Below are positions 2,276 to 61,153 of a DNA stretch of 64,000 nt, in pieces. The stretch covers positions 1 through 64,000 of the forward strand of contig JABMCL010002510.1 of assembly GCA_018857735.1 (NCBI GenBank), given 5' to 3'. Below the pieces are notes generated by a model that was not told the DNA's origin, made no database searches, and saw only the letters and a list, made by a program, of their open reading frames with translations. How positions within the stretch are numbered: position 1 is the first letter of the stretch; each line of letters starts with the position of its first letter. This DNA is from Alviniconcha marisindica. Lineage: Eukaryota > Mollusca > Gastropoda > Provannidae. Both the position numbers and the translations under genes were made by a program.

Positions 2276-2351
<76 letters not shown>

Positions 2352-3932: not shown

Positions 3933-4037
3933 TTTGCCAAAGAGATGGGCTTCTGGGTGGAGAGTCTTTCCACCAATGGCTCTGTGCAGATGTGGAAAGA
4001 CTGGAGAGCCAAGCACTGCCAGCCAAACTACAGAAAG
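3933..4037 (+). CDS. AGA: AGA internal exon (FAKEMGF...HCQPNY)
   Basis: Translates to FAKEMGFWVESLSTNGSVQM followed by WKDWRAKHCQPNYRK, which matches the end of the AGA alpha chain region. The acceptor is CAG at 3930-3932 or an upstream CAG in the same cluster; the donor is GTACAG at 4038. No exon for the region before it was found in the preceding intron. Confidence 0.75.
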
Positions 4038-4315
4038 GTACAGATCCACTTCATTGAACAGCCAAACCCACTGTAAAACCAATGTCTTTGAGATCCTGTA
4101 ATGCTGAAGACAGAATCATTCAGATCATGTACAACAACTGATTTTAGTTCTTTATGTTTCTTGTGTTTTTTAATAGCAAATTTTGGTCAAGGTGAAGTAA
4201 TTTTGCACAATTTGAATAAAGTACAATACACAGTTTGGATTAGTGTGCATTATATCCTACAGTTTGCTTAAATGTACAGTTAATTGGTGATCTTCAAAAG
4301 CAAGACTAGGACAGA

Positions 4316-29104: not shown

Positions 29105-29257
29105 TCAGAACAGGGATATGACTTTGTGGTGTTCAGGTTCATCGGCCAGGTCGTCACCTTCACGCATTCCTTCACTGACGGGCCCCCTGCCCAGCAGTTC
29201 TAGCATGGCCTTTGCTTCTGGGTCCTTGTCCAGTACACTTTTCTTGGCTAGTCGCTC
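29105..29257 (-). CDS. MEAK7: MEAK7 last exon
   Basis: Acceptor GATTTTTCAG; encodes ERLAKKSVLDKDPEAKAMLE and the acidic tail ending in VISLF with a TGA stop at 29105-29107. The motif D-x-D-P-E-A matches the family C-terminus. The first 11 bp of this exon and its acceptor are copied seven more times upstream in 65-bp units. Confidence 0.93.
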   Translation of the reverse strand, partial: ERLAKKSVLDKDPEAKAMLELLGRGPVSEGMREGDDLADEPEHHKVISLF

Positions 29258-31913: not shown

Positions 31914-31992
<79 letters not shown>

Positions 31993-34900
31993 CCCACATA
32001 CTGCAAACACAACCACACACTGGCATGCAACTATAATGCATACTGTATGCTACCTTCATTGCTTCAGCAAATCAAGAGTGGATTATATCAACAAAGGGAG
32101 TTAATTCAAATTCAAAAGACATCATGTGAAAACAACAAAGACCTGAATCATCTCTGTTAACTCTCACCTGGCATGTGAGTAAATACAAGGAACATGAACT
32201 CCACCTTTGGTGATTCAGGCCTACGCTGCTGTGTTTGTGTGACATCTTTCGAGTTCCAGTTAACTCCCTTTGTTTGTTGATGAACTACACAAGCCCTTTC
32301 GGTCATTAGGACTCATTCTGTGTCCAATTCTGACATGAGGTTAACTTACACAGACACATCGTGAGGTATGCAGCTGAGCAGTTTAAATTAGGCAGACACA
32401 TCATGAGGAATGCGGCAGAATAGGTTAACTTTGGCAGACACATTGTGAGGTATGTGGATGAGCAGGTTAAATTAGGCAGACACATAGTGAGGTATGCAGC
32501 TGAGCAGTTTAAATTAGGCAGACACATCATGAGGTATGTGACAGAATAGATTAAATTAGGCAGACACATCATGAGGTATTCAGCTGAGTAGGTTAGATTA
32601 GGCAGACACATCATGAGGGATGCAGCTGAGTAGGTTAAATTAGGCAGACACATCATGAGGGATGCAGCTGAGTAGGTTAAATTAGGCAGACACATCATGA
32701 GGGATGCAGCTGAGAAGGTTAAATTAGGCAGACACATCACGAGGTATGCAACTGAGCAGGTTAAATTAGGCAGACACATTTTGAAGTATGCAGCTGAGCA
32801 GTTTAAATCAGGCAGACACATTGTGAGGTATGCGGCAGAGCAGTTTAAATCAGGCAGACCCATTGTGAGGTATGCGGCAGAGTAGGTTAAGTTAGGTGGA
32901 CACATCGTGAGGTAGGCGGCTGTTGGGCATCTTTAATAAGGGGGGAAAGGGGGGAAGCAGAATAAATTTTAGTCTTACCAGTCCATTGGGCAGTGTTTGC
33001 ATGTTCATGTTGAGGTACATGAAATTGCTGTTGTAACCAGTTGCGGAATACACACCAAAGTTTGGGTTGAGTCGGAACAGACAACATCGGTCATCACCTG
33101 AGGAAAAGAAGCACTGCATGAATACATTGTGCAAACAAAGCATGTGTTTTGGTCCAGATGCATTGCAAGCTTGCATTTGCAAGTTAATCTTTTGTCTAGT
33201 TGTATCACTTCTCTCCAGAAACAAGAACCTTGCCTTATTCATCATTTCTAATAAATTCTGCCTCTAGTATAATACTATGTGCTTAGACACACATTATTTT
33301 TTCAGGTCTTGATTGTGTGGTATTGCTTCAGACAAAGATGAAGTACTTATGTATATTTGTATATAATGTCTGTTATCCATTGTTGGAACAGGTGTACTGA
33401 CTTGTTCTACAATTGTGCTATATTCGTTATATTGAATTACCTTCTCTCTTTTTTAAGACAGTTTAAGCATAAGTGTACCATTTTAAGGATCCCAATCCTC
33501 CTTAAGGTTCCCTATATGATGCAGGCTGAGTTAAATAAAATCTGATGAAAATGTTGCATATGGACAGACTGGCCATGAGTCAAATACATTTTTTCTATTA
33601 AAGGGCCCCTGAACACTGATTTTAGCATCAGATCCCCTCTTTGGTATATATATTCCACCGACTAAATATTTTCACACAGTAAATACAGGTATATATCCCG
33701 TGCCTCAGTAATAATTTCATATTTTTCTAGTGTCTTAAATGCTTATGAATCGCAAAACAAGACCAATATGTCACGGCAGAATGGGCAAGGGAAATAACTG
33801 CTGTAGCCGCATGATCGGGCGTGTTTTGGCCGAGAGTTTACTTGGAGCCGTAAAGTCAAAGGCCAATCATGACGTCACGATAAGACTCGACTGCCATTGG
33901 CATTGTTGCTTCTACAGTTTCAGTGCACAAAACTCCGGATAAATTTGCCTGAAAAGTTGGAAATGGCAACTGGAATACGGCCATTCCAGTACGAGCCAGT
34001 TGCGGATATCAATTCTGGCATGGACTGGCATCGACAAGCATAAAATAGTGGTGGTTATGCTTGTGTTTATTGTATATTGTGATGTGTGCGATACTACGTG
34101 TTGTTGTGTACTTCTTAAGTGTTAATCTTTTACATATATGTACACTGTCTTTGCGACTTTATGTGTGGCACCACATTTTCCTTTGAAGGAATAAAGAAGT
34201 TCTTGACTTGACTTGACTTAACTTGACATAAGAGCACAGAAGCAAAAGTAAATGTGCCAACAACGAACAGATGGAAAGCCAAACTAACCATAACTAACCC
34301 CTCACTAACCCGGCCTCCATCTAGAAACATAATGCCTGCAGACTGATAAAGCAAATCGCTAATCAGGACTACAGATGACAAAGCATCGGGATGTAAACAA
34401 ATGCAGATGAAAAGAGAAATTCAAAATGGCTGCCCTAATCAGGCAAGCTAACAGCGGGTACGAATAGGCCAATAAACCAAAGATAAAAACGAAAGACGTA
34501 TGGTGGAAGAGAAGAGAGAGAAAACAAAACAACGACAACAACAACAAACACTTTCTGAAAAGAAAGAGGAGGCAGGAAATGTCAGTAAGCAACGTGACAA
34601 AGGCTGGATATATACATGTAATCCGTGTACACGATACAACCCACTTAGCAGTGACAACAACACTGCGGGGAAGCAGACGCTCACAAGACTACCCCCCTCA
34701 CTCGTACATCGTAAATGAATGCTATAACCCGAGAAACAAAAGGAGCTGAAAGAGAAAAAACAGTCAATGGCAAGAACCGGTCACTAGCCCAACCCCAAAC
34801 CCTAACCCAGGGAGGCCACGAAATCGCTAGTCTATTGAACTAGAACGAACAAAACTTCTTCATCTTTACGTATGATGAAACAAACACGGATAAATTGGGA

Positions 34901-37900
34901 AGATAAAATAAAACACCCAATAAAAGGCAGGCTTCCTGAAGAGGTCTAGCCTGTTGTGAAAACTAGAGTAAACACAACGAAAAAGACCGAAACGCCACGC
35001 ACCTAACAAAGCTCGAGAAAGATGGAATGACAAGGGGGAAATAAACAAAGGCCCAACTACTGGCAAAGTCAGTGTCCCTGTGGACATGTATTTGAGCCCA
35101 AACTGAATGCTCACCAGGGTGTGATCTGTGAAACATTTTTTTCGCAATGCTTTGAGCAGAGCACATCGTGGTGTTTTGGTTCCCACTTCTTTACGGCTAG
35201 GTCCCATCGATTCATTGCCATTTGCCACTGTCGTTTTCTGGCTTCATTTTTTTTTTTAAAGGAAAAGCATGGAAAGAAAACTCCTTTGTCAACTTTTCAC
35301 TGCAACCAACGGCAGCACACTCGCTCGGCATGCTTTAAAACTGATTTGCCAGACTACTTTTGATTCAGTTTTGTTCAAGTTGTTACTGAGCCATGCTGGT
35401 CAGTTGTCTTGTCGTGACGTCACGGAGGTCACGTGACCCAAACCCAGGATTTTCAGCTGCAGATGATGCAGCTGCTCGAAGCGTCCTGTTTGTTTTCATT
35501 TAAATCAATACTTTTATGTACCTCAGGAAAATGCCAATCTATCAAATGAACAGTATGTATGTTAAACTTTATTTATATAGTACAATGTAAGTGATATTTA
35601 CTATTTAAAATCAGTGTTCAGGGGCCCTTTAAGGGTTTCTCTAGTAATAATAATGACAATAGTAGAGTATTAGAGTGCCCTTTCTCATATGAGCCCTATG
35701 CACGTACATTTCGTACTCAAGACAAAAACAACCAACATCAAAATACACAATAATTATTAATACACACAAATTCATTATCAAACACTGCCCCCCCCCCCCC
35801 CCCCCCACATGCACACCCACACACACCGAAATGCGCGCACACACACACACACACTATTCAACTGTGCTGCTCTGGAATGCCCTCACTCCACCTCAAATGG
35901 TTGGTGTCCAGGCAGTTGTGGGGTAATCATAAACTGACCATCAATTGGACAGGCATGACTGAGACCTGGACCACTCTCCACATATACCTCCACTTCCATA
36001 TGTGTATTGATCAGGCGTGCAAATAAGTGACAAGGTAAATACACAGCTTTTGCTTTAAGGTACATTTAGAAACTGAGAGCTGTTGCGGAAAATCTGTAGT
36101 TGGAGAACTGACTCTTGTCACCAGCAAAGCAACAGAAACATCCCATGATCAAGATCACTGATTCTTGTAACCAACAAAACAACCTAAACCTCCCATGATC
36201 CGATGACCGACTCTTGTAACCAGCCAAGCAACAGAAATCTTCCATGATCAAGATGACCAACACTTGTAACCAGCCAAGCAACAGAAACCTCCCATGGTCA
36301 AGATTGCACACACTTGTAACTGGCAAAGCAACAGGAACCTCCCATGATCAATATCACTGAATCTTGTAACCAACAAAGCAACAAAAAACTCCCATGATCA
36401 AGATCACTAAATACTGTAACCAACAAAGCAACAGAAACTTCCCATGATCAATATCACTGAATCTTGTAACCAACAAAAGCAACAGAAACCTCCCATGATC
36501 AATATCACTGAATCTTGTAACCAACAAAGCAACAGAAACTTCCCATGATCATATGACCGACTCTTGTAACAGCCAAGCAACAGAAACCACCAAGATCACT
36601 GACCCTTGTAACCAACAAAACAACAGAAACCTCCCATGATCAAGATTGCGCACACTTGTAACCGGCAAAGCAACAGAAACCTCCCATGATCAAGATCTCT
36701 GACTCTTGCAACCAATAAAATAACAGAAACCTTCCATGATCAACATCACTGACTCTTAAACAGCACATACAAGAATACATTATTATCGTCATCACAAATA
36801 CAGTTAAAAACTCACTTCCCTACTCAGCACAACTCACCATAAAACTTAGGACAGATGTGCCAAGGCTGACTAGCGAAGCCCCCAAAAACATGTCCCTGCC
36901 GATCGTGCAGAACCAGAAGAGATGGACCCCGACCTTCCAGGATCTTGGCTAGCTGTGAAAAGCTGTCTCCATGAAGAGCGTTGCTGAATATCAAGCGCCA
37001 TTCTCCTTGCAACTCTGAGGGAAGGGTGGCGTTTAGGAAGAGCACTGATGGTAGATCCAGGATGGTCTGCACCTTGGACCAGTTTGTGTCACACACTTGG
37101 GGTATCCGAGGGTGAGTGAACACCACATCTGCTGGGTCATTATCCTGAAAAAGTTTTTCTTTTCTTTTAGCAAGAACATATAAAAGATTCAAAAGAAAGT
37201 TTATTTTAGAATGCTAACAGTCATTCTCGTTTCAGATTTTTTTTTTTTTTAGCAAGAACAGTATGCAACTGATCAGTCAAGCTGCATTCAATACGGAAAA
37301 GTAAGTCTTTTACGATATCTCTCTAACTCTCCTGTGACCTTGAAATAGGTCAAGTCATTGAATCCTGTATAAATATATACAGAGATCTATATTTATCATC
37401 AAGCAACACTTCAACGATTCCACACACACACACACAAAAACAACCCAAAATAGCAACCTGCCTGTGTACACAAGTAGAAATAAACATAATTTGTTTCTTG
37501 AGATTATTTCAAACATATTTTGCTTTTTAAGATTATCTCAAACATATTTTGTTTTCTGAGATAATCTGAATCTGTGAAAGTCCACAATGAAATCAGACTA
37601 CAAAGGTCAACACAATGAAGGCATGCAATCTAAAAAAACTCTAATGTTTAATAAATCAGCCCAACAACTGAACTGTCTTTGCTGAAACTATAAAAGTTCT
37701 TCACTACTGTTGATGAACTGACTTTGCTAATGTTGAGTTAATCAAGCTGTCCACATGTATGTTATATCTGCAACCACATTCTATCTTCTACACATACGCT
37801 AATACAACTTTTATAAGATTAAACAGCTGATGTTGCTGTGTACACGTACATAAAGTCGGAAGCATGCATGAAAGACTTCATGAAAGATCTGCTGGAAGAG

Positions 37901-40900: not shown

Positions 40901-43167
40901 GAACAACAACAAAAAAATCACTCCTTGGGATGCTAACATTTCCCATTTTCTTTTAAAAGATTCGGCATATTTTTCAATATAAATATCCCTTCCCTTTTAA
41001 AAACCCGGGAAGGAAATTTGCTAAAAACTCCCGATGAATGTTTAAAAAAGTTGAAAAGTTACGTCTTCGAAAATATTACCCCCCACCAACCTTTCCCCAT
41101 AAAACAAACCCTTCTCTTTCCCCCGGGGGGGGCCAAATTTTGCTAAAAGCAAAAGACCCCGGATGTAAACATTAGGGAAAGGTTTTGTTTTCAAAAAGCG
41201 GGAAAGGAAAAAATTTTTTTTTTTCCTTTTTTCTTGTTTAATTTAATACTTGTTGAAACGTTTTTATTGCAACAAATTTTTATGAAGAATTTGGGAAAAT
41301 ATATTTTTAAAAAATACCCCAGGGCATTTGGCAGTAAAATAAAAAAATTTGGGTTGCCTGAAAGCAGTGAACCGGTAAAAACCCAGTGACTGGAGTAAAG
41401 TTTTGAAAAGAAAGAGAAAGTCCGTTTTCCTGATTTGTCTTTTGGGGTGCTGGTCATGAAACATTTCAACAAAATAACGTTCGACCAAAGGGATATTTGG
41501 GAAACCTCTAACTCCAAAAACAAAACTTAGTGAAAATTTGTTTTTATATGCACTGTGTAAAGTATACCTCCTCTGTGAAATCGGTGACTGATTAATGTTT
41601 TGATTCGCCCTGTATTTTAAGGGGCTCAAAGCCCACCGGCAAGGGGGCCCTTTCAGGGGAAACGGGTTTTTATTAAAAAATTAATTTTCCCACTTTAAAA
41701 AAATTTTATTTTGTTTTTCCCCACTGAAATACCAACCAAATGAAGAAACTCTCAAAAAACCAACAAGACCAAAGTGTTTGAAACGGATTTTATTGACAGT
41801 CAAAAATCGGACCCCCCATTTGCATACCTTTTGGCACTAAGTCATATGAATTCTTATACATTGTCCAAAATAACACTATCTATAGGATAAAATGTTGTTT
41901 TGTCCTAAGAAATAGTGTTATTTTGAACGTTTTATACATTTGGACAATGTATAAGAATGTTGTGTTTTGTCCCAATAAATAGTGTTATTTTGAACCTATG
42001 AAAGGTTCAAAATAATGCTATTTATGTTGTGTTTTGTCCTAATAAATAGTGTCATTTACAACCTTTTATGTGTTTGTATCTTGTTTTAGAACACTAGCAG
42101 CAATTCTTGTTTCAGATTTTTATACACTGAGTTTTGAAGTTAGTCATTCATGAGAAGATGAGGCGGGTAGAAAGCGGATTCAGCAATGCTGACAGGTCTG
42201 ACAAACCTGACGGGAAAAGGTCCTCCAGCATGTAGAGTGCCAGCCGCCGGTACGTGTCTCTGGCAGGAGCAAAGATCCAGCTCTGGTACTGCCTGCAGTG
42301 CGCCGCCAAGATCTTCTCATAGCTCTTTACCATACTGCTCACAAACTGCAAAAACAAGTCAGTGTTCATCAACAGCTCATAGCTCTTCACCATACTGCTG
42401 ACAAACTGCAAAACTGTCAATGTTCATCAACATCTCATAGCTCTTCACCATACTACTCACAAACTGCAAAAACAGCAGTCAGTGTTCATCAACAGCTCAT
42501 ATCTCTTCACCATACTGCTCACAAACTGCAAAAACAACAGTCAGTGTTCATCAACAGCTCATACCTCTTCACCATACTGCTGACAAACTGCAAAAAACAA
42601 CAGTCAGTGTTCATCAACAGGTCATAGCTTTTCACCATACTGCTCACAAACTGCAAAGCAGACAATGTTTATTCCCAAAAACCCCTGGGTCTTACCATAT
42701 TCCAAAACTCAGCTCAAACTCCCCCCCCCCCCCCCCCCCCCCACTCCTTCCCCCACACACCAAAATTTTTCCCTTCACACACCACCACAAACAAACTTAG
42801 GGAAAGGAAAAAAACAAAATGGATTACAACCACGAACCAAAAACCCTTAGGGGAAAAGGGGAAAAAAAAATGAAAGGGGGTTAAAAACCCTTTTACGGGT
42901 CCCCCAGGGAAGGCCCCAGATGGGGAGAAAAGGGGAGGCCATTCACCTTTCATGGGCCCCCCTTTTTGAAAGGGGGATGGGGTTTAGGTCCATTAAAATT
43001 CATTAAAACCTTTTCCCTTTTTAGGGGGTTTTGAACCCCTGTGTTTAAAAGCTGAAAGAACCCGGGGAAAAAAAAAAAACCAAGATGCTAACATCCTTAA
43101 AAAATCTGCTAAACTGGCAAGTTTCTTAAAAAGTTTGATGTTTATGTGACCTTTACTGGTTTTCTGG

Positions 43168-43243
<76 letters not shown>

Positions 43244-44723
43244 CAAAGTGCATCCTTACCAGCTCAATTCAAAAGGGTAAAAAGATTACTATTTATTATA
43301 TTAGTGGTTATATTCTTTTATAATGCAACTCTGCAAATATTGTTGAAAGCTAGAGATCAAGCCTGCTTCCAGATGTGACTGTACACCATTCATCATTGTT
43401 TTGGTGTGCCAAATATTTTGTTGACAGTGATAACTTTGAATCATTAAATATGGTCCAGTTGTGAATTTCTTAAAGTTCTGCAGGTTCTACTGGAGAAACT
43501 GGACTACTCACTCTCAGCAAATCTGCTAACTATTCAAAGTACTGCTAACAGCAGACAGACGTGATTACAAAATCTTCTCCAGACACATTTTGAATACAAA
43601 TTAAAATGTTACCATCATCGGCACCATCTCATGGAAACCCAACTATTCCCCCACTGACCAACTGAAGCAAAGCCGTCAATTTTTCCATCTGCACCATGCA
43701 AAATTACATTAACGGTCCACTGTTTGAAGGCATTCAAGCTTTCACAGAGAAGAAAAGAATATCTTAGAAAAAAAAGAGAGTATAACTATAAATAATGATG
43801 AAGATAATATCAATAATTAGGAGTCAACTTATAAAATATGTTAATTATTGTCACTGCCTGGCACTTTGGTAATCTAACGATACTTAATAGCTAATTTCAG
43901 CCTTTACTCTACTCTAAAGGAATCAAATGAAACATGAACACCAACTGACCAAGCATGCATTAGCACTGGCCATGTCCAAGCATACAGTGACTTTAAATAG
44001 GTTAATAACAATATGCTTGGGCAAAAACAATTAAACATGCTTAGAGTTAGACAAATACAAGTAAACAATCACACCGACACTCTAACACAGTCACACCCAC
44101 ATTCACGTACATGTATGCGTGCTCTTATAAATTTTATATGCTTGACCTCTCTCTTTCTCTCACACATGATACACAACACTCAGGTTAGTCAAAGACCTGT
44201 GACCATTCAGTTTCACTTCCAGTGTTAATGTTATAAGAAAACGGCACATCAATAATAAATTAGTAACTAAAGAAGAAAACGATCAATATGAAGTGAACTG
44301 AAATAAAGAAACAGTGCATGCGATTCTGCCTCTGCAAGTTAACGACTCCTGTCAAAATCAAAATGTTTACCGTAAGCGTTCCGTCATTTCACTATTAACT
44401 GGATTACAGTTCCCTACATGTTACTTCAGATATAGCCAACATTCAGGGGACTGGGGGACTCAGATACATACAATAACACGGAACAAGGTAAACAAATATA
44501 AATGTTACTAAACAATACATTATCCATCTGAATTCTGTGGCTTTGAGTGATCACTACACACATGAACCGAACCGTAATTTGAGCTTACCCGAAATTCTTC
44601 TCTGTTGAACGTTTTCTTTCCGTGAGATATCCTATGAAATAAAGTAGATACCATTGGCTTTTCTTCATCTGAGAAATGTATTGAAGATTTACTATCTGAC
44701 TCTTTACTCTCATTTCCACCCAT
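29105..44723 (-). CDS. MEAK7: TLDc-domain protein, MEAK7/TLDC1 orthologue (7 exons found, N-terminal exon missing)
   Basis: MEAK7 (mTOR-associated protein, eak-7 homologue) is a lysosome-associated TLDc protein reported to promote mTOR signalling through S6K2. Seven exons join on the minus strand with matching phases to give 402 residues. Residues 1-6, MGGNES, fit an N-myristoylation signal (Gly2, Ser6). The segment TWISQSTLFQQIFHEVFHAC precedes the TLDc domain, which spans about residues 165-340 and shows FSNALHGDSFSQLAKILEGR, GHVFGGFAS, CCLFRLNP, YNSNFMYLN, QTLPNGLGMGGQFDYFGFWV and CTTYGSPQLS. The human protein is 456 residues; the deficit lies between exons 1 and 2, where about 50-90 residues of the N-terminal helical region should be. 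The gene is divergent from CEP76. Its introns carry a SINE, two or three DNA elements and several minisatellites. Confidence 0.93.
29247..29765. repeat. 65-bp array carrying copies of the MEAK7 last-exon acceptor (8 copies)
   Basis: Units start at 29247, 29312, 29377, 29442, 29507, 29572, 29637 and 29702, all 65 bp apart. On the minus strand each contains GTTGATTTTTCAG followed by GAGCGACTAGC, the real exon start. Only the copy nearest the exon body continues into coding sequence. A 65-bp shift is not a multiple of three, so use of an outer copy would usually break the frame. Confidence 0.95.
30662..31391 (+). mobile_element. Non-autonomous piggyBac-like element with TTAA target duplication
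   Basis: The element is 30666-31387, flanked by TTAA at 30662-30665 and 31388-31391. Termini are CTCTTTCAAGGC on the left and CTCATTCAAGAC (reverse complement) on the right, matching at 10 of 12 positions. It contains a short frame typical of acidic piggyBac transposase N-termini but no DDD catalytic region. It lies in the last MEAK7 intron. Confidence 0.8.
30924..31028 (+). pseudogene. Relic N-terminus of a piggyBac-type transposase
   Basis: Begins MAARRLNMCYSARETVELVL and continues with an acidic EGSDLEDFLDNG before a stop; the following in-frame stretch reads VDSGEEFVLVDLEADSNDSD. Acidic, low-complexity N-termini of this type are usual for piggyBac transposases. The assignment rests mainly on the TTAA context. 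Confidence 0.45.
31645..31854 (-). CDS. MEAK7: MEAK7 exon, end of TLDc
   Basis: 70 codons, phase 0 at both ends; acceptor TTATGCAG, donor GTACAG. Encodes GMGGQFDYFGFWVDHTFSSG, CTTYGSPQLS and VDILEVWVVG, the last strands of the TLDc fold. Confidence 0.96.
31915..31989. repeat. (GA)n microsatellite
   Basis: About 75 bp of pure GA, in the intron just upstream (minus sense) of the MEAK7 exon at 31645-31854. Confidence 0.97.
32345..32925. repeat. 42-bp intronic minisatellite, about 14 copies
   Basis: Unit GGTTAAATTAGGCAGACACA plus TCATGAGGTATGCAGCTGAGTA. Located in a MEAK7 intron. The minus frame is open for 199 codons (MCLPNLTYSAASLM repeats), again because the unit is divisible by three. Confidence 0.93.
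32979..33097 (-). CDS. MEAK7: MEAK7 exon, central TLDc
   Basis: Acceptor TTTTCCTCAG, donor GTAAGA; encodes DDRCCLFRLNPNFGVYSATG then YNSNFMYLN...LPNGL. Phases match both neighbours. Confidence 0.96.
33598..35632. mobile_element. 2.0-kb TTAA-flanked inverted-repeat transposon
   Basis: Terminal inverted repeats begin AGGGCCCCTGAACACTGATT at 33602 and, in reverse complement, at 35628; at least 23 bp match exactly. TTAA lies just outside each end (33598-33601 and 35629-35632). Both subterminal regions carry TGACGTCACGA followed by AAGAC, so symmetry extends inward. No transposase frame was recognised. A retrotransposon-like tail (TTGACTTGACTTGACTT near 34202) and its upstream sequence suggest a second element nested inside. 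Resides in a MEAK7 intron. Confidence 0.8.
36080..36765. repeat. ~48-bp intronic minisatellite, about 14 copies
   Basis: Unit built from AACCAGCAAAGCAACAGAAA, CCTCCCATGATCAAGATCAC and TGACTCTTGT, with small indels between copies. Lies just downstream (minus sense) of the MEAK7 exon at 36838. Confidence 0.92.
36838..37144 (-). CDS. MEAK7: MEAK7 exon, N-terminal half of TLDc
   Basis: 307 nt; acceptor TTTTTCAG, donor GTGAGT, phase 0 to 1. Contains LFLNATLPSE, WRLIFSNALHGDSFSQLAKI and HVFGGFASQPW, the diagnostic core of TLDc domains. Confidence 0.96.
37850..37995 (-). CDS. MEAK7: MEAK7 exon (SKKDKGF...HACFRLY)
   Basis: Acceptor CTTGCAG; joins the previous phase-1 exon to make a glycine codon. 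Encodes SKKDKGFNLTVVPKDVMFST and the W-I-x-x-S/T segment before the TLDc domain. Donor GTACGT, phase 0. Confidence 0.9.
38107..38125. repeat. Poly-C run
   Basis: 19 consecutive C bases just outside the element at 38143. Confidence 0.95.
38143..38590. mobile_element. 448-bp MITE-like element with an interior of short palindromes
   Basis: Ends are inverted repeats: TCACTGGCAGAAGCTGCCAC at 38143 and TCATTGGCAGGAGCTGCCAC reverse-complemented at 38590, continuing AAGTAT on both sides. The interior contains about 16 versions of TTTGTYRYGACAAA, itself a palindrome (for example TTTTGTCGCGACAAAA), spaced roughly 20-28 bp. No target-site duplication is obvious. Confidence 0.75.
39165..39360 (+). mobile_element. 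tRNA-derived SINE, 3'-truncated
   Basis: GGGCCAGTTTGGTCTAGAGC head, GGTTCAATTCTGC B box, then CTTCAGATATTGTGGCTTAT, ATTAAAATGGCTTACGCTGC and ATCATTCTGG. The TTACTTACTT tail is missing; the copy fades out before the homopolymer-rich block. Confidence 0.85.
39460..41830. other. Homopolymer-rich anomalous block
   Basis: From about 39460 the texture changes abruptly: runs of three to eight identical bases (AAAA, TTTT, CCCC, GGGG) dominate and dinucleotide repeats vanish, then normal texture returns near 41830. No exon, repeat family or mobile element can be read in it. It looks more like unpolished or erroneous assembly than natural sequence. It lies in a MEAK7 intron. Confidence 0.6.
41851..42085. 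mobile_element. Small foldback repeat with a dispersed copy
   Basis: A perfect 19-bp inverted repeat, TTCTTATACATTGTCCAAA, lies at 41851-41869 and reverse-complemented at 41939-41957. The motif GTGTTTTGTCCTAATAAATA followed by GTGTTATTTTGAAC recurs within it and again at 45692-45745 in CEP76 intron 1. Confidence 0.7.
42207..42345 (-). CDS. MEAK7: MEAK7 exon (FVSSMVKSYE...EDLFPS)
   Basis: Acceptor TTTTTGCAG then TTT GTG; reads FVSSMVKSYEKILAAHCRQY onward to LYMLEDLFPS; donor GTTTGT, phase 1. Its first ~38 bp together with the acceptor have been copied five times upstream (42401-42660), so an earlier acceptor could be used. Confidence 0.88.
42341..42660. repeat. ~60-bp array carrying copies of a MEAK7 exon acceptor (6 copies)
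   Basis: The junction ACAAACTGC (minus: GCAGTTTGT) occurs at 42341, 42401, 42459, 42521, 42583 and 42646. Each unit holds about 22 bp of intron and the first ~38 bp of the exon, reading FVSSMVKSYE. The nearest extra unit is exactly 60 bp, so using it would add 20 residues in frame. Confidence 0.93.
42665..43065. other. Second homopolymer-rich block with poly-C
   Basis: Includes 22 C bases at 42721-42742 followed by sequence with the same CCCC/AAAA/GGGG texture as 39460-41830. It sits in the intron where the missing MEAK7 N-terminal exon should be. Confidence 0.55.
43171..43240. repeat. (GT)n microsatellite
   Basis: 70 bp of pure GT in MEAK7 intron 1. Confidence 0.97.
43241..44588 (-). other. 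MEAK7 intron 1 remainder, no exon seen
   Basis: I searched the minus strand for the expected helical N-terminal exon and found no frame that joins at phase 0 on both sides. Confidence 0.5.
44589..44723 (-). CDS. MEAK7: MEAK7 exon 1
   Basis: Starts at the ATG at 44723 with MGGNESKESDSKSSIHFSDE and ends ...NREEFR before donor GTAAGC; 45 codons, phase 0. The start is supported by the N-terminal MGG myristoylation-type motif shared by the family. Confidence 0.88.
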
Positions 44724-45162
44724 GACTATCAGATTTCTGCCAACACTTGTTTACATGCCTATGTGCCACTAGTCACTTCCTTGATCTTCAAACGGATTGA
44801 GGTGCACAGGTTGAAGCTTCCTAATACTTATCAGAAGTGTAGAATGAACATGATTAAGAATATATTTTTTCAGAATATTATGATAGTGACTGGCTAGAAC
44901 TTTAAACAGAGTTCGTGTTATTTCTTGTTAAGTGATATTTTATCTGTGTGAATTCGCTTATGAGGCTGATGTTTCAAAGAAACTGAGACGCTTGTATCTT
45001 TTCAATTCCAGAAATCATTACGCCCCTTGAAAGTGTTACTTCCGTTATGCGCGAGCATGACCCCGGGAGCGTTTGGAAAACACCAGAGAAGTAGAAAGGA
45101 AAGTTAGAAGTTGTTTTGCTGCCCGTCTGATCTTTTCTCGTCAGCTTTTACCAACAGCCAGC
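44724..45162. promoter_or_regulatory. Probable bidirectional promoter of MEAK7 and CEP76
   Basis: 439 bp separate the two divergent start codons. ETS-like cores are visible (CACTTCCTT near 44775 and TACTTCCGTT near 45047), the latter next to GCGCGAGC, in sequence more CG-rich than the surroundings. No TATA box is obvious. Exact transcription starts cannot be placed. Confidence 0.6.
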
Positions 45163-45225
45163 ATGGCCTTACCACCAGAAAAGGTCACGGAACTCAAGCA
45201 GATCATTCATTCTCAGCTAGCGCAG
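45163..45225 (+). CDS. CEP76: CEP76 exon 1
   Basis: ATG in context GCATGG; 21 codons, MALPPEKVTELKQIIHSQLA plus Q; donor GTAATT, phase 0. Matches the family N-terminus, which fixes the start. Confidence 0.95.
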
Positions 45226-45809
45226 GTAATTTAAATACACCCCAAATGCTGAAGCAGCAGACGAATGCGTGATTCGACATGTTGTGTTTCTTCATTGCTC
45301 ATGAATGGAAATTGACAATAACACATAAACAGCCCTGAAGTCTGATTACAACTGTTCGAATGAATAATTGCAAGAAAGCGGTTGCTCTTGCAAACTCACT
45401 CAGCTCGGGTAAACTGAATGTTGGTTCACCTGAGAAGTGACAAAATCACACTCACACTCAGTCACAGTGTCATACTTTAGCATAGTGTATTTTTCAGTCT
45501 AGTCTTCAACAATAATAATAACAGTAGTAGCGGTCATTTCTGTAGTGCTGTATTTCACCCACACGGTTAGCACACTGTGCATTACAAGATCAACAAAATT
45601 CCCATCTCATTTTTCATCTTTTTTCACCGTTTAACTGTTGGGTAAGTGTCGTTTTGTAGCTTGACAAAGGGGATTACCCTGAAAATTTACATGTTGTGTT
45701 TTGTCCTAATAAATAGTGTTCTTTTGAACCTTTTATGTGTTTGGATCTAATTTTTGTAGTCATTGTATTCCTCACACATCATACCTGCACATGTGTGCGC
45801 TCGTGCACA

Positions 45810-45864
<55 letters not shown>

Positions 45865-54800: not shown

Positions 54801-55608
54801 AGGACAGTGACAGGTGCCAATTTTCTTTCACACATTCTATTATGTCGCCCTGGCTGCAGAGCCTGCATGGTGTTTTCCTTACACGTTCCTCGAACATAAA
54901 CTTGCAGAATGAGGACAGTAACTACAGACCTGTGTACTCCTTTGTGACTCCTCAGCATTCCTGTAATGTACACTTGCCAGATGAGAGCAGTAACTACAGA
55001 CCTGTGTGCTCCTTTGTGACTCCTCTGTATTCTTCTAACGTACACTTGCAGGATGAGAACAGTTACTACAGACCTGTGTGCTCCTTTGTGACTCCTCTGC
55101 ATTCTTCTAACATACACTTGCAGGATGAGAACAGTAACTACATACCTGTGTGCCCCTTTGTGACTCCTCTGCATTCTTCTAACGTACACTTGCAGGATGA
55201 GAACAGTAACTACAGTCCTGTGTGCTCCTTTCGGACTCCTCTGCATTCTTCTAACGTACACTTGCAGGATGAGAACAGTAACTACAGACCTGTGTGCTCC
55301 TTTGTGACTCCTCTGCGTGCTGGGAGGCTGCTGGACACACCTCGCCAGGCCATGCGTTTCGTGTCACTGATCCGTTACGACAAGCAGCAGACGCTGGGTG
55401 GTGGGGACAAGCTGGAGCAGTGGTGCACTCTTCATGCCTTTCTGGCCAAGAACAAAGGGGTAGGCTTTTCCATCTGTGGAGACAACTCGCTGAGTGTGTG
55501 TGTGAATGCGTGCATGCCTGTGTGTGTGTGTGCATGTGTGTGTGTATGCATGTGTGTGTTTGTATGTGTGTGTGGGTGGGTGTGCATGCCTGTGGGGGTG
55601 TTTATGCC

Positions 55609-55648
<40 letters not shown>

Positions 55649-58600
55649 CACATGCAAATGTGTGTGTGTTCATACTTTTTTTTCTTCAAATCATTGTATG
55701 CGTTTGAGTGGTCTGACTGTGGGTAGCTAGAACACCAATCCCCCTGTTTACAGGACTGTGAGGACCATACCACATTGACCGTGATGATGATGCCACATTA
55801 CTTTGCTGTTTGCAGGACTGAGGACCATGCCACATTGACTTTGAGGATGATGCCACATTACTTTGCTGTTTGCAGGACTGTGAGGACCATGCCACATTGA
55901 CTGTGATGATGATGCCACATTACTTTGCTATTTGCAGGACTGAGGACCATGCCACATTGACTTTGAGGATGATGCCACATTACTTTGCTGTTTGCAGGAC
56001 TGTGAGGACCATGCCACATTGACCGTGGTGATGATGCCACATTACTTTGCTGTTTGCAGGACTGTGAGGACCATGCCACATTGACTTTGAGGATGATGCC
56101 ACATTACTTTGCTGTTTGCAGGACTATGAGGACCATGCCGCATTGACTGTGAGGACGATGCCACATTACTTTGCTGTTTGCAGGACTGTGAGGACCATGC
56201 CACATTGACTGTGAGGACGATGCCACATTACTTTGCTGTTTGCAGGACTGTGAGGACCATGCCACATTGACCATGAGGATGATGCCACATTACTTTGCTG
56301 TTTGCAGGACTGTGAGGACCATGCCACATTGACCATGAGGAGGATGCCACATTACTTTGCTGTTTGCAGGACTGTGAGGACCATGCCACATTGACCATGA
56401 GGATGATGCCACATTACTTTGCTGTTTGCAGGACTGTGAGGACCATGCCACACTGCTGTGCAGCCTGCTGCTGGGCTTTGGCCTGGATGCCTACGTGTGT
56501 TTTGGCACCAAGGTGAAGGGCGCCGTGCACGCCTGGGTGATGACCATCAGCACCGACGGCCTTGTCACCTTCTGGGAGAGTCTCAGTGGACATAGGTCAG
56601 TGGGATGTGGCTTGGTGGAGTGGGGGGTGGGGGTGGTCTCTTCTTTTCATTTGCCTAAAGATAGACGTTACATACCACCAGAAGAAAGGGCTGTCTTACA
56701 TCTGTATGGGCTAGTAAAGAGAGTGGAGGAAAAGCAAGCGGTTGTCATTGTGTAATGCTCCATCTCTTTTCATTGAAATACAAGGAACCCATATTAGAGG
56801 ATGTACTTTTTTTTTTAAACAGATGGTAGAAAAGATTATTTTCTGATCACAATTCTCTGTCCATACATTTGTGTCTCGTACATGCACTTGTCACCCCTGC
56901 ACGCACACACACATACACACGCATGTGCTGTTAAATCTCAGGATTTTTACAGGTATTCTTTTTCTCATTTCTTTTTTGCCTATAGGTAAGTAACTGTGCT
57001 GTCCTCAAAGTACTGCATTTTTACACTACAGAATGACCTGAGCTATTGGCTGTGTACTCTGGAAGAAAAGAGAAAAGCCCTTGGGACAAGACTTGGTGCT
57101 TGTGTAGCTGACACAGATTCTTCTAGCATAGACTGAGCACAGCAGCTGCATGCATTTGCAGGTTCATTCATAGACTTGGTGCTTGTGTATCTGACACTGT
57201 TTTCTTCTGGCAGAGACTGAGTACAGCAGCTGCGTACATTTGCAGGTTCATTCATGAGCCCATTGACCCCATGGCTCCACCGATGAGCAAGAAAGAGCGA
57301 GCGAAGCACCCCTACAAAACCATTGGATGTGTCTTCAACCACCGAACCTTCTATGCCAACACCCAGGTAACTGATTGTGCTCTTTGGAGGTTTTGGTCAC
57401 TGAAAACTTCACAAAGCACCCCTTCGAAACTGTTGGATGTGTCTTCAATCACCGAACCTTCTATACCAACACCCAGGTAACTGATTGTGCTCTTTGGAGG
57501 TTTTGGTCACTGAAAACTTCACAAAGCACCCCTTCGAAACTATTGGATGTGTCTTCAACCACCGAACCTTCTATGCCAACACCCAGGTAACTGATTGTGC
57601 TCTTTGGAGGTTCTGGTCACTGAAAACTTCACAAAGCACCCCTACGAAACTATTGGATGTGTCTTCAACCACCAAACCTTCTATGCCAACACCGAGGTAA
57701 CTGTTTGTGCTTTTTGGAGGTTTTGGTCACTGTAAAAAGCCTTTCACAAAGCACCCCAACGAAACCATTGGATGTGTGTTCAAGTTCAACCACCGCACCT
57801 TCTATGCCAGCACCCAGGTAACTGTGCTCTTTGGAGGTTTTGGTCACTGAAAAGTTTCACAAAGCACCCCTGTGAAACCATTGGCTGTATCTTCAACCAC
57901 TGCACTTTCTATGCCAACACACGGGTACGTTTTTGTGCTCTTCGGAGGTTTCAGTCACTGAAAGCCGTTCAAGTGAGGTGGAAGACATTCATAATGACAA
58001 TGCAAATTTCACATGGATTTGATGTTTGAAATAAAATTAACAAAATTGTTTTCTTTTCCCATAACTTTAGTGTGAGACTACTTTTATTGCTAACTTTTTC
58101 ATATAATAATAATAGGGAATTTATAGAGCACTTTCAGAAACTCAAAGTGCTTTACAACTTAAAAACAGACACAAACGTTTTATTTTTTTAATCCAAATTG
58201 ATGTGCTCAAATATGCAGTAAATATACGGACATGTAGCCTCTATATATACATACAGTTGTTTTGTGCAGTTGCTTGCAGTTTGCGTGTAGTTTAATGATG
58301 AAAATAATTGTGTTTTGTATCAACACTTTTGTCTTGTGCAGATGAGTGATGAGGTTTTGTACTAATGCCTTTGTCATGCACAATCCAATGATGAGGTTTT
58401 GTATCCATGCCTTTGTCATGCCCAGACCAATGATGAGGTTTTGTCATGCCCGGACCAATGATGAGGTTTTGTCATGCCCAGTCCAGTGATGAGGTTTTGT
58501 CATGTGGAGACCAGTGATGAGGTTTTGTATCCATGCCTTTGTCATGCCCAGACCAGTGATGAGGTTTTGTCATGTGCAGATCAGTGATGAGGTTTTGTAT

Positions 58601-61153
58601 CAATGCCTTTGTCATGCCCAGACAAATGATGAGGTTTTGTCATGTTCAGGCCAGTGATGAAGTTTTGTCATGTGCAGACCAGTGACCGTGTGGAGGAGTG
58701 TCGCTTTGAGCTGCACAACGGCTCACTGTGGAAGAGCATGAGAAGCGAGGTGGTGCTGTCGGTGTGTGGCCCTGGCGCCAGCCCCCTCTGGCCCTCCCCG
58801 CCCCCTCTGTGTGCCTCCGTCCTTGACCCCACCCTGGTCAGCAATGACCTGGAGATACAGATACGACGTCTGGTGGTTCAGCATCGCCAGGTTAGTTAGT
58901 GGTGTGTGTGTGTGAATATGTGTACACGCGTTTGTGTGTAGGTTCACTTGAGAAAGGACTTTTAATAATAAGAGAAGAGTTGTGAAATGTGCATTTGCTT
59001 ATGATAGAGTTTGACTGCTGTGGTGTGTGTGAGTGCATGTGCGCACACGTACATGTGTGTGTGGGTCTGTGTGTGTGTTCATGCATGTTTGTGGGTGTGT
59101 GCGTTCATGTTGTATGTGTTGAATTTGGATTTATCAGACTCTTACTTTTGATACGACTCGTTTTACGCTTGACTCACTCCCTCCCTCTTCATGTTGATTG
59201 GGTGTTATAATTCAAGAGTCAGTCAATCATTTTGTCAGGACCAAGGCCTCACAACACCCTGGGATGACCAGCTGAGTTACATCCTCACCCCTGCCCTTGC
59301 TGCCTACGAAACAGAGAGAGTCACAGGTAACTCTTCATTCTACACCTCTTCTGTACTCCTGTGCTGTCTTGCTCAGGCTTCCTTGTGGATCTCAAAACCA
59401 GGCTTTGAGTTTGTTGGTAAAAGCCTGTGTGCGTCAGTTTCCAAGCTGAACAAGGTAGTGTGACATTGATTCTGCATAGACCAATGTTTGCAGTGAAATG
59501 TACACATGGAAGTAATCATATGGATGAATTGGGTTTTATTCAGGAAAATGTCGATAGACATTACAAGAAGTTGAACACACAGTGATGGTGAGGATGATGA
59601 AGACTTGAAGACCTGTCCATGCTGCCAAAAATGTGCTTATTGTGCTAAAAAACAACACACACACACACACACATGCAGTCATGCATGCATGCACACACAC
59701 ACAAACAAACCACACATGCACACTGATGCATGCATGCACACACACACACAACACAAACATATGATCACACCACACACCACAACCCCCCCCCCCCCAACAA
59801 AACAAACTAAAACAAACAAAAAACACCCCAACAACAATCCAGTCTCACTGTGCATCAAAGAAGTTGACATAATCGACATGTCATCATATGTGTTGGGTCA
59901 CCTTTTCCAGGTGTTACTGCTGGCAATGAAGAATTCCAAGATGCAGTGCGACAGGCAGTTCCAGAGGGACAGACATTTAAAGGCTACCCCATCCAGTTTA
60001 CACATCGCAATGCCCGCAAAGCTTTCCTCACGTGCCTCAAGTAAGTTTTACCATCACTTGTTGCATTGTATGTCGTGATCATGCTGAGGTAATAGTCTCT
60101 GTTTTTAGGTGTTGTTGCTTAGTTTCTGTTTGTCTGCGTTTTGTTTGTTCATCCAGTGATGTGTATGTGATGCAGAATGATGTTGACTTGCATCGCATTT
60201 TGAGAGTTACTGTGACGTTTGATTCAGCACTGCTATCATGTCTTGGTGTTTGTTTGTTCATGAGTGGGGATTGTCTGCAGATTCTCTGATTTCAGAGAGT
60301 GTGAGCTCTTCAGTTATTTCACATGTATAAGTTTTATTTTGTTTGAGGGAAGAAGACTGCCAGTCAGAATTTCAAATTTTGGTTTCAGTGTGCAATTGCT
60401 TGATCTGAAATGCTCCGATTCACTTGGATTTTATTTCTGGGTTTTACAACAAAACAAACAACAACAACAACAACAAAGGGGGAAGCGGGTGAGGGGGGGG
60501 GGGGGGGGGGGGTTATAAAGGGCATAAAAAATGGTCCCTTCAGGTATGTGTTCATAGCTTCAGGACTTTGGCAACAACTCTCTTTTTTGCTTCACCATTG
60601 CACATCCCTGGTTATTGCACATTAGCATTTTATGCTTAAAATCATGGAAAACAACAACAACAATATTGCATTTTGTTTTGGCAGTACCAGGGTCCAGCTT
60701 TCAGACTTTTGACACACCATGGGTTGCAGTATGGTTTCATGATATCCAGGCAGCATCCAGTCTGGTTAGATGATGTTTGAAAATGTTATACCACAGTGTC
60801 AGAAAGACTTGGCCACAGTGTACTTGGTTTCACAGTATGCATTGGCTTCTGTCTGGTCCAGGGCCCCAGTGTACTTGGTTTCACAGTATGCATTGGCTTC
60901 TGTCTAGTCCAGGGCCCCAGTGTACATGGTTTCACAGTATGCATTGGCTTATATCTAGTCCAGGGCCCCAGTGTACTTGGCTTCACAGTATGCATTGGTT
61001 TCTGTCTGATCCAGGGCCCCAGTGTGCGAAGAAATCATCAACTGTCGAGGGGACCAAGTGAGACTGGCGCTGCGGGTCCGGGTCTTCCCCTACCCAGAAT
61101 CCGCCTGCGCCACCTGGGTCATGTTTGCCTGCAAGTACAAGTCAGTCTTGTAG
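45163..61153 (+). CDS. CEP76: Centrosomal protein of 76 kDa, complete 12-exon gene
   Basis: CEP76 is a centriolar protein that restrains centriole re-duplication. Twelve exons with GT-AG junctions and fully consistent phases give 656 residues, against 659 in human. Order: a helical N-terminus (MALPPEKVTELKQIIHSQLA); a C2-like region about 98-260 (RRYLYLQIHGGKAF, FRGQRFKSRPVPCACEPSFE); a transition with WWREYLDIKP; a transglutaminase-like domain about 330-450; and a C-terminal region rich in conserved blocks ending in VMFACKYKSVL. In the transglutaminase-like domain the Cys of GDCEDHATLL (around 374), the His of HAWV and the Asp/Glu of TDGLVTFWES are all present; whether the domain is catalytic is not known from sequence. 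No stop or frameshift occurs in the model. Exons 6, 7, 8, 9 and 12 are each preceded by tandem copies of their own acceptor. Confidence 0.97.
45515..45610. mobile_element. Possible fragment of an AAT-tailed interspersed repeat
   Basis: AATAATAATAACAGTAGTAG followed by CATTTCTGTAGTGCTGTATT resembles the widespread invertebrate repeat seen more clearly at 58103. Weak. Confidence 0.3.
45809..45859. repeat. (CA)n microsatellite
   Basis: About 50 bp of CA in CEP76 intron 1. Confidence 0.97.
47547..47772 (+). CDS. CEP76: CEP76 exon 2
   Basis: Acceptor TTTGTTCAG; MDVEAHIRSVMDEIMTSEAE then a helical stretch LSEADMIEKLRNRGVVDEIM; ends K-K before donor GTAAGC, phase 1. Confidence 0.96.
48150..48870. 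repeat. Ancient ~150-200-bp tandem repeat with a TCTGTCGGATGYAAC motif
   Basis: TCTGTCGGATGCAAC at about 48158, TCTGTCGGATGTAAC at 48499, TCTGTTGGATGTAAC at 48698, and CTGTCGGATGCC at 48846, with an inverted copy (ACATCCGACAGA) at 48344. Sequence after the second and third is alignable (GGATGGAC/GGTGGAC, ...CACAGCT.ATAAAA). A further copy, TCTGTCGGACGCAAC, is at 50597. Confidence 0.55.
49295..49363 (-). CDS. Nested gene, last exon
   Basis: Acceptor CTTTTCAG; 22 codons AKEVDAPKGQEQVFFMPQQG, QH, stop TAG. Phase 0, consistent with exon 2. Confidence 0.5.
   Translation of the reverse strand, partial: AKEVDAPKGQEQVFFMPQQGQH
49295..50713 (-). CDS. Unrecognised small gene nested antisense in CEP76 intron 2
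   Basis: Three minus-strand segments with good splice sites join in one frame to the stop at 49295-49297. I do not recognise the protein. The last two exons give 42 residues from an internal ATG (MTQILTPRYTSAIYRFFIAD then AKEVDAPKGQEQVFFMPQQG, QH). If exon 1 codes, it adds LCAYFLFKHGANKERRSEQH upstream. The product is small, basic in the middle and polar at the C-terminus, with no signal peptide or long hydrophobic segment visible. Sequence upstream of exon 1 (50700-50960) is CG-rich compared with the intron, as in a promoter. No ATG was found in the exon-1 frame, so the true start is unsettled. Confidence 0.5.
50145..50226 (-). CDS. Nested gene, exon 2
   Basis: Strong acceptor (T-rich tract then TTTGTTCAG) and donor GTGAGT; 82 nt with one base completing the previous codon. 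Encodes RSEQHDAMTQILTPRYTSAI then YRFFIAD. Ends phase 0. Confidence 0.5.
50668..50713 (-). CDS. Nested gene, exon 1 (5' limit uncertain)
   Basis: Ends in GAACG before a perfect donor GTGAGT (phase 2). The frame that joins exon 2 reads LCAYFLFKHGANKE. The 5' edge given here assumes the weak acceptor CCCACAG; alternatively the exon extends further and is 5' UTR. Other ATGs here are out of frame with exon 2. Confidence 0.4.
50714..50960 (-). promoter_or_regulatory. Possible promoter region of the nested gene
   Basis: Unusually rich in CG dinucleotides for this intron (GCCGCGC, CCGCGG, GATCGTAACG, TTCGATC) and placed directly upstream of exon 1 on the minus strand. Several TCGAAAC-type motifs continue on the other side (50340-50640). 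Confidence 0.35.
51560..51600 (-). mobile_element. Retrotransposon tail fragment
   Basis: On the minus strand, CAATAAAGATTCTGTATTCT followed by GTATTCT repeats resembles the 3' end of LINE-type elements with short tandem tails. Only the tail is visible. Confidence 0.35.
51832..52053 (+). CDS. CEP76: CEP76 exon 3
   Basis: Acceptor TTTTTGTTTCAG; encodes ANIDPSRRYLYLQIHGGKAF, and FKSRPVPCACEPSFEEGFLL from the C2-like region; donor GTAATT, phase 1. The preceding intron is 4.06 kb and hosts an apparent antisense gene. Confidence 0.96.
52276..52345. repeat. CA/GA-rich simple sequence
   Basis: Alternating CA then GA repeats in CEP76 intron 3. Confidence 0.9.
53212..53397 (+). CDS. CEP76: CEP76 exon 4
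   Basis: Encodes MADTPSMLSICDQIHIVLIR and FFEWRPLL; donor GTGAGT, phase 1. Upstream acceptor TGTGTGTCAG. Confidence 0.96.
53493..53514. repeat. Poly-G run
   Basis: 22 consecutive G bases after TG-rich sequence, in CEP76 intron 4. Confidence 0.95.
53707..53933 (+). CDS. CEP76: CEP76 exon 5
   Basis: Encodes GPESKVPTGILEAELELFPR, then RRFLEYAKHWWREYLDIKPA to KIFAL; acceptor CATCTTGCAG, donor GTGAGA, phase 0. A 22-base G run (53493-53514) lies in the intron before it. Confidence 0.96.
54886..55320. repeat. 72-bp array of CEP76 exon-6 acceptor plus exon start (6 copies, all in frame)
   Basis: Exon-start positions are 54908, 54980, 55052, 55124, 55196 and 55268, exactly 72 bp apart. Each unit carries the tract TTCTTCTAACGTACACTTGC, the AG, and exon sequence for DENSNYRPVCSFVTPL. 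The frame stays open through all units (24 residues each), matching exon 5 phase 0. The second copy has a changed acceptor (GCCAG). Confidence 0.96.
55268..55459 (+). CDS. CEP76: CEP76 exon 6
   Basis: 64 codons: DENSNYRPVCSFVTPLRAGR, then LLDTPRQAMRFVSLIRYD and LEQWCTLHAFLAKNKG; donor GTAGGC, phase 0. This is the innermost of six acceptor copies 72 bp apart; five more in-frame copies lie upstream, so the true 5' edge could be any of them. Confidence 0.92.
55495..55665. repeat. TG-rich microsatellite
   Basis: Irregular GTGTGTGTGCATG repeats ending in a pure (GT)n run near 55612-55646, in CEP76 intron 6. Confidence 0.93.
55742..56455. repeat. 62-bp array of CEP76 exon-7 acceptor plus exon start (12 copies)
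   Basis: Exon-start copies begin at 55754, 55816, 55876, 55938, 55998, 56060, 56122, 56184, 56246, 56308, 56370 and 56432. Each has TTTGCTGTTTGCAG followed by GACTGTGAGGACCATGCCAC. Most units are 62 bp; two lack TG in GACTGTGAG and are 60. Only the last continues into the exon body. Confidence 0.97.
56432..56595 (+). CDS. CEP76: CEP76 exon 7 (transglutaminase-like core)
   Basis: Encodes DCEDHATLLCSLLLGFGLDA, then YVCFGTKVKGAVHAWVMT and TFWESLSGH; donor GTCAGT, phase 2. Innermost of twelve tandem copies of the acceptor and exon start. Confidence 0.95.
57086..57262. repeat. 84-bp duplication of CEP76 exon-8 acceptor
   Basis: The junction TTTGCAG|GTTCATTCAT occurs at 57161/57162 and 57245/57246. 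The extra 84 bp is 28 codons without a stop in the exon frame, so the outer acceptor would yield an in-frame insertion. Confidence 0.9.
57246..57366 (+). CDS. CEP76: CEP76 exon 8
   Basis: Encodes FIHEPIDPMAPPMSKKERAK and HPYKTIGCVFNHRTFYANTQ; acceptor CATTTGCAG, donor GTAACT, phase 0. The acceptor is duplicated 84 bp upstream, and the exon 3' end with donor is repeated about five more times downstream. Confidence 0.94.
57300..57930. repeat. 110-bp array of CEP76 exon-8 3' end plus donor (6 copies)
   Basis: The junction ACCCAG|GTAACTG occurs at 57361, 57471, 57581, 57691 (CGAG variant), 57812 and a diverged copy at about 57918 (GGGTACGT). Each unit includes exon sequence for GCVFNHRTFYANTQ and about 45 bp of intron. 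No acceptor lies in the extra units. Confidence 0.95.
58103..58168. mobile_element. Fragment of a widespread interspersed repeat
   Basis: AATAATAATAGGGAATTTAT then AGAGCACTTTCAGAAACTCA and AAGTGCTTTACA, a pattern familiar from invertebrate SINE-type repeats. Short fragment only. Confidence 0.45.
58340..58690. repeat. Short-unit array of CEP76 exon-9 acceptor (about 9 copies)
   Basis: Units of about 28 or 49 bp with TTTTGTCATGCCCAGACCAG and TGATGAGG. Each contains a CAG|ACCAGTGA-like junction; the last, TGTGCAG|ACCAGTGACC, is the real exon start. Confidence 0.92.
58678..58890 (+). CDS. CEP76: CEP76 exon 9
   Basis: 71 codons from TSDRVEECRFELHNGSLWKS through PLCASVLDPTLVSNDLEIQI to HRQ; acceptor TGTGCAG, donor GTTAGT, phase 0. 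The acceptor lies at the end of a short-unit array. Confidence 0.95.
59239..59326 (+). CDS. CEP76: CEP76 exon 10
   Basis: Encodes DQGLTTPWDDQLSYILTPAL and AAYETERVT; acceptor TTTTGTCAG, donor GTAACT, phase 1. Confidence 0.96.
59655..59800. repeat. CA-rich microsatellite with 13-base poly-C
   Basis: CACACA and CATGCATG repeats ending in C(13) at 59783-59795, in CEP76 intron 10. Confidence 0.93.
59911..60040 (+). CDS. CEP76: CEP76 exon 11
   Basis: Encodes VTAGNEEFQDAVRQAVPEGQ, TFKGYPIQF and ARKAFLTCL; acceptor CTTTTCCAG, donor GTAAGT, phase 2. Confidence 0.96.
60493..60512. repeat. Poly-G run
   Basis: 20 consecutive G bases in CEP76 intron 11. Confidence 0.95.
60800..61020. repeat. 51-bp array of CEP76 exon-12 acceptor (4 copies plus a partial)
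   Basis: CCAG|GGCCCCAGTGT junctions at 60862, 60913, 60964 and 61015 (first exon base). Although 51 is divisible by three, each extra unit has an in-frame TAG or TGA just before the next AG, so outer acceptors would truncate the protein before CEEIINC. Confidence 0.95.
61015..61153 (+). CDS. CEP76: CEP76 exon 12 (C-terminus)
   Basis: Completes a lysine codon, then APVCEEIINCRGDQVRLALR, VRVFPYPESACATWVMFACK and YKSVL with TAG at 61151. Innermost copy of a 51-bp acceptor array. Confidence 0.96.

Follow-up and report, generated by a model that had tools for sequence, protein, structure and literature searches.

Why do tandem repeats lie across so many splice junctions of two adjacent genes in the snail Alviniconcha marisindica? 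The window analysed here (bases 1–64000 of one contig, in an assembly of 818 Mb) carries MEAK7 on the reverse strand and CEP76 on the forward strand, head to head with 440 bp between their start codons (44723–45163). A first-pass annotation of this sequence proposed that a local or genome-wide mutational habit seeds minisatellites at 3' splice sites. We have followed this proposal in the two genes, in other genes of the same genome and along their introns.

The nearest proteins of both genes are those of caenogastropod snails: Littorina saxatilis (88%) and Batillaria (81%) for CEP76, Littorina (78%) and Babylonia (77%) for MEAK7. Consecutive gene numbers in Batillaria, together with contig data from Littorina, suggest that the pairing of the two genes is old. 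Gene models were obtained by spliced alignment to snail homologues, from hand-chained matches and then with a separate dynamic-programming aligner, and the two routes agreed for CEP76. The models comprise 12 exons of CEP76 and, within the window, seven of MEAK7, giving 17 acceptors and 17 donors. The part of MEAK7 coding for residues ~46–122 (Littorina numbering; region 42352–44588) was not found in the window or among seven whole-assembly matches; it has been lost, has diverged or falls in an assembly gap.

Tandem arrays cover seven of the 17 acceptors and one of the 17 donors, each including 8–63 bp of exon (Table 1). The initial claim that these junctions were multiplied together with their exon edge is thus confirmed by the models, TRF and junction probes. 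Two of the unit sizes first given need correction: '60' is ~62 bp, and '28/49' is 28/70/98 bp; the exon edge, put at 10–50 bp, measures 8–49 bp at the acceptors and 63 bp at the donor. The best identity of 40-bp junction probes within 1.5 kb was at most 0.57 at unarrayed junctions versus 0.70–1.0 at arrayed ones (the MEAK7 E3 probe being 6 bp off). TRF and unit alignments of seven arrays confirmed their tandem, minisatellite-like character, and the models confirmed that the unit crosses the intron–exon boundary, with both intron and exon sequence in it. By spliced alignment, the exon-joined copy of each array runs on into protein sequence conserved in homologues, which supports the first-pass reading that this copy is the real one.

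Table 1. Tandem arrays across splice junctions of MEAK7 and CEP76, and two arrays lying inside MEAK7 introns
Feature	Positions	Strand	Unit and copies	Exon inside	Basis and remarks
MEAK7 E8 acceptor array	29247..29764	(-)	65 bp x 8.0	11 bp	TRF, sequence, both models
MEAK7 intron array	32338..32922	(-)	42 bp x 13.9		TRF; 56 bp clear of donor 32979; intron background
MEAK7 intron array	36107..36757	(-)	50 bp x 13.2		TRF; 80 bp clear of donor 36838; intron background
MEAK7 E3 acceptor array	42316..42657	(-)	~62 bp x 5.6	~30 bp (from coordinates)	TRF, alignment, probe match; first exon base 42345
CEP76 E6 acceptor (55268) array	54886..55316	(+)	72 bp x 6.0	49 bp	TRF, models, probe
CEP76 E7 acceptor (56432) array	55744..56460	(+)	62 bp x 11.6	29 bp	TRF, models, probe
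CEP76 E8 acceptor (57246) array	57089..57255	(+)	84 bp x 2.0	10 bp	TRF, models, probe
CEP76 E8 donor array	57304..57963	(+)	110 bp x 5.9	63 bp	TRF, models, probe; last exon base 57366
CEP76 E9 acceptor (58678) array	58312..58685	(+)	nested 28/70/98 bp	8 bp	TRF, models, probe
CEP76 E12 acceptor (61015) array	60811..61025	(+)	51 bp x 4.2	11 bp	TRF, models, probe

At MEAK7 E8 the first exon base is 29257, or 29254 through a second AG 3 bp further on, and copies of the junction probe lie at -65 to -455; at MEAK7 E3 they lie at -60 to -305. The sequence of the 72-bp array before CEP76 E6 is open in the frame of the exon (54886–55459), and each outer acceptor, if used, would add 24 residues and no stop.

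Introners, which are repeats found at the splice junctions of many loci, have sequence in common from one locus to another. The snail arrays resemble them in being found at many junctions, but their units share no sequence between loci. When seven of the eight junction arrays were compared with one another (CEP76 E9 was left out), the best match extended over only 14 bp, and the CEP76 E7 array, searched against the whole assembly, matched nothing besides itself. These results contradict a mobile family and bear out the earlier view that the arrays arose as independent events. An explanation of the arrays as mobile introner-like repeats or as artefacts of assembly could appeal to their presence at many junctions, to the draft state of the genome, with its gaps, and to a donor array in a tyrosinase-family gene (L032:126–420) whose three 98-bp copies are 100% identical, as mis-assembly could give. 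Against it, in addition to the unrelated units and the single-locus array, stand the host exon edge that each unit carries as its own and the divergence of the window copies, 5–21% on average in the seven arrays aligned, and we regard it as extremely improbable.

Twenty loci for dynein heavy chains from this genome, aligned to dynein proteins, served as a held-out set. Introns with an exon score below 40, a flank score below 8 or N nearby were dropped, which left 118; one intron of locus L012 was then removed as spurious, leaving 117, since an apparent frameshift had made the aligner place a micro-exon inside a donor array. This frameshift, of a single base, affects a dynein exon and directly precedes a 151-bp donor array (oriented positions 3474–4285) and represents either an assembly error or a damaged gene. 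The L012 donor that is counted is a site on an outer copy of its array; the two donor hits of L017 are each supported by one distant upstream copy, and a sequence gap adjoins the donor array of L015. Probe and TRF figures for intron coverage, and those for AG/GT retention and penetration, still include the L012 intron; those for random placement and intron length exclude it.

A junction was considered arrayed when a 40-bp probe centred on it recurred within 1.5 kb with at least 72.5% identity, low-complexity probes being excluded. In the dyneins alone this was so for 15 of 117 acceptors and 12 of 117 donors (p = 0.68). With the window genes added, 22/134 acceptors and 13/134 donors were arrayed, these totals being probe counts corrected for L012 by combining two analyses; TRF gave 20/134 and 9/134 (19/133 and 9/133 without L012). 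The habit of forming minisatellites that cross junctions extends, as the first-pass annotation had allowed, well beyond MEAK7 and CEP76, to dynein loci and to the tyrosinase-family gene. The sample beyond the window consists of dyneins, and its counts are therefore not genome-wide. Acceptors of the window are arrayed more often than held-out ones (7/17 versus 15/117, one-sided Fisher p = 0.008), in a window chosen for being striking.

These counts have to be seen against the repeat content of introns. By TRF, arrays occupy 35,013 bases out of 129,920 in introns, and 29% in those of the dyneins; 1784 of 6290 probes taken along whole introns were arrayed. At chance level, with intron probes compared with 3 kb from an unrelated locus, 11 of 1262 passed 72.5%. 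When the probe was moved along the sampled introns, coverage showed no peak at junctions. It was 1.5% at 60 bp inside exons, 10% at donors, 16% at acceptors and 22% at 40 bp from acceptors, and reached ~40% at 400–500 bp into introns (39–64 introns per point); beyond 500 bp, where few introns are long enough, it scattered between 17 and 39%. Since coverage falls towards the junctions without a peak, the junction arrays resemble the edge of an intron background. The introns of MEAK7 and CEP76, with an array content of 16–18%, are below the sample average, and 321 of 2000 random positions in them were arrayed.

The array fraction increases with intron length (rho 0.42). The median intron measures 893 bp with arrays versus 546 bp without, and the non-array part of arrayed introns measures 532 bp; arrays therefore contribute a large part of the added length in longer introns. 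By TRF, the region from 3 to 29 kb of the window is 14% array and two random 10-kb stretches are 8.6% and 7.3%, so that the dynein introns are array-richer than these two stretches. Elsewhere in the window, positions 1–2900 hold a dense array of a 15-bp repeat with larger nested repeats (124 of 148 probes are arrayed in 1–3000), and a 36-bp x 22 array at 19664–20485 is open on both strands over ~240 codons, probably as a by-product of a stop-free unit.

We consider it likely that local tandem duplication acts along introns as a whole, and that arrays which happen to cross a junction are tolerated where the exon-joined site still works. Duplication, presumably by replication slippage or template switching followed by unequal exchange, would build minisatellites through the non-coding genome, lengthening the longer introns considerably, and some arrays would include a splice junction by chance. 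With the added copies on the intron side, where they would become more intron, and with the exon-joined acceptor or donor retaining its own signals, such arrays would be tolerated; exon definition would select the exon-joined site over the outer copies. We infer that the affected junctions are spliced normally, that the arrays are neutral and that the dyneins can stand in for other genes. The array content of dynein introns (29% versus 8.6% and 7.3% in the random stretches) counts against this explanation, as does the polarity of the arrays, which differs between genes. At the DNAH3 locus (G1: L006, L026, L027) seven acceptors and one donor are arrayed out of 18 each, whereas a second dynein locus (G2: L008, L028, L029) has the opposite polarity, with no acceptor and three donors arrayed out of 26. 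Taken together, CEP76, MEAK7 and DNAH3 have 14 arrayed acceptors to two donors and the other genes eight to 11 (p = 0.012, with the grouping made post hoc).

A rival reading makes the region of the 3' splice site (pyrimidine tract, branch point, R-loop or lariat) a hot spot of mutation from which minisatellites would arise. The excess of acceptors over donors in the window (7/17 versus 1/17, p = 0.04) and the seven acceptors to one donor at DNAH3 argue for a hot spot; the absence of a coverage peak at acceptors, the near-equal held-out counts (15 and 12 of 117) and the dynein locus with donor arrays only argue against it. In a placement test, arrays were slid randomly within an intron extended by 60 bp into both neighbouring exons, and entries of 6–60 bp into the exon were counted. 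Acceptor entries exceeded expectation in the full sample (16 versus 8.3, p = 0.007; donors six versus 8.3) and in the window (five versus 1.1, p = 0.003; donors none versus 1.0), and both excesses speak against junction crossing by chance as in our preferred reading. Among the held-out dyneins the excess was smaller (11 versus 7.3, p = 0.10; donors six versus 7.2), and without DNAH3 it disappeared (six versus 5.8; donors five versus 5.7). Entries of 6–30 bp, a range set after the edge profile had been seen, favour the hot spot over our preferred reading in the held-out set, with nine acceptors versus 3.2 expected (p = 0.003) and four donors versus 3.2. An acceptor preference of the arrays is unproven, and the claim that the habit is seeded specifically at 3' splice sites is not supported, as junction coverage is below that of the intron interior and the held-out dyneins show neither a clear surplus of arrayed acceptors nor a significant excess at 6–60 bp. 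We consider a mutational hot spot at the 3' splice site unlikely.

Splice signals are intact in many array copies, as the first-pass annotation had anticipated: among the extra copies at 36 junctions (including one acceptor later judged spurious), 85 of 92 retain the AG and 57 of 58 the GT. Scored with a matrix derived from these same junctions, 41 of 92 outer acceptors and 27 of 58 outer donors equal or exceed the real site, and at CEP76 E7 nine putative outer acceptors score equal to the real one. Selection might keep these arrays as functional, either for robust recognition of the junction or for alternative products. In keeping with this, the dinucleotides are retained more often than flank-identity-matched intron-internal ones (AG 0.95 versus 0.77; GT 0.96 versus 0.84), and among outer copies alone, in arrays with at least three of them, the junction dinucleotide exceeds the mean of the remaining columns, which holds for 12 of the 15 acceptor arrays (p = 0.017) and for all seven donor arrays (p = 0.016). 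Plain neutrality, as in our preferred reading, need not give retention above the average column, although part of it is expected. However, the comparison with intron-internal dinucleotides is biased, as the real site has to be retained, the probes are centred on that site, and the columns adjoining the dinucleotide are kept about equally well; these figures therefore permit no conclusion on selection. In the window, 27 of the 34 outer acceptors tabulated would introduce a stop codon, and maintenance by selection appears to us very unlikely. Repeated peptides, as a trace of outer-copy use, occurred in four of 360 predicted homologues, three of them from non-snail species. In a starfish relative of MEAK7 (Acanthaster, protein P0136), a 15-residue stretch is repeated at a spacing of 19 residues, as use of an outer copy could give.

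Structures of this kind have been described in amphioxus as 'mirages', in Adh3, the globin genes BflGb6 and BflGb9, troponin C and PGBD5 (PMC3087553, PMC3902484). Mirages are minisatellite-like tandem duplications across 5' and 3' intron–exon boundaries, with units of tens to ~160 bp, AG or GT kept in many copies and the strongest divergence in copies at the edge of the cluster. The snail junction arrays share these features and, judged by their sequence, are mirages in structure. The amphioxus cases were reported for single genes, where RT-PCR showed regular splicing and haplotypes differed in length; the snail arrays, in contrast, belong to a mollusc and are known here from the DNA of one assembly, alongside measurements of the intron background and of junctions in held-out loci. 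The intronic minisatellite CeRep25B of C. elegans, reported near alternative splicing regions (PMC4039745), similarly links intron minisatellites with splicing, but it is one family at many places, whereas each snail array forms a family by itself and takes in exon bases. In the literature searched, which covered few subscription papers, we found no report of boundary minisatellites in molluscs; those found concerned amphioxus.

Tandem duplication can also be a route to intron gain, of which the potato RdRp gene is reportedly a case. The Rogers model derives new introns from tandem duplication of exon sequence bearing AGGT (cited in PMC3087553), and the snail arrays are like such events in being tandem duplications with splice signals. 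Comparison of the donor side with the acceptor side of 133 introns revealed no likeness between them (mean best identity 0.391, maximum 0.50; control mean 0.390, 99th percentile 0.50), and we reject this origin for the sampled introns. The tyrosinase-family gene is, we presume from a motif, haemocyanin-like. Bounded by TTAG and carrying GAG|GTGAGC, each copy of its donor array has the look of a candidate small exon. An open frame of 2572 residues next to a tyrosinase-family exon proved to be a run of N. Haemocyanin genes of caenogastropods are reported to gain introns fast (PMC8599328), and a link between the arrays and this gain is offered as a suggestion. In a bolder version, tandem duplications of this lineage would end preferentially at the 3' splice site. 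The roughly threefold, gene-dependent excess at 6–30 bp would then reflect some local feature of how the DNA is transcribed or replicated that makes acceptors founders of minisatellites, and mirages would have separate origins in molluscs and amphioxus and would feed haemocyanin intron gain in caenogastropods. We rate this scenario slightly below the hot spot in plausibility.

In the snail genes sampled, short tandem repeats account for more than a quarter of intron sequence, and local tandem duplication may be responsible for a large part of the length of longer introns. The structure of the junction arrays is of a kind known from amphioxus; what is new is the host and the measured background, and mirages are thereby extended to a mollusc. 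About one-sixth of the acceptors and one-tenth of the donors in our sample lie inside an array of similar sites, which constitutes a natural experiment on the spliceosome's choice among near-equal sites, with CEP76 E7 and its equal-scoring putative outer acceptors as an example. Exon definition would explain how the exon-joined copy wins over the outer copies.
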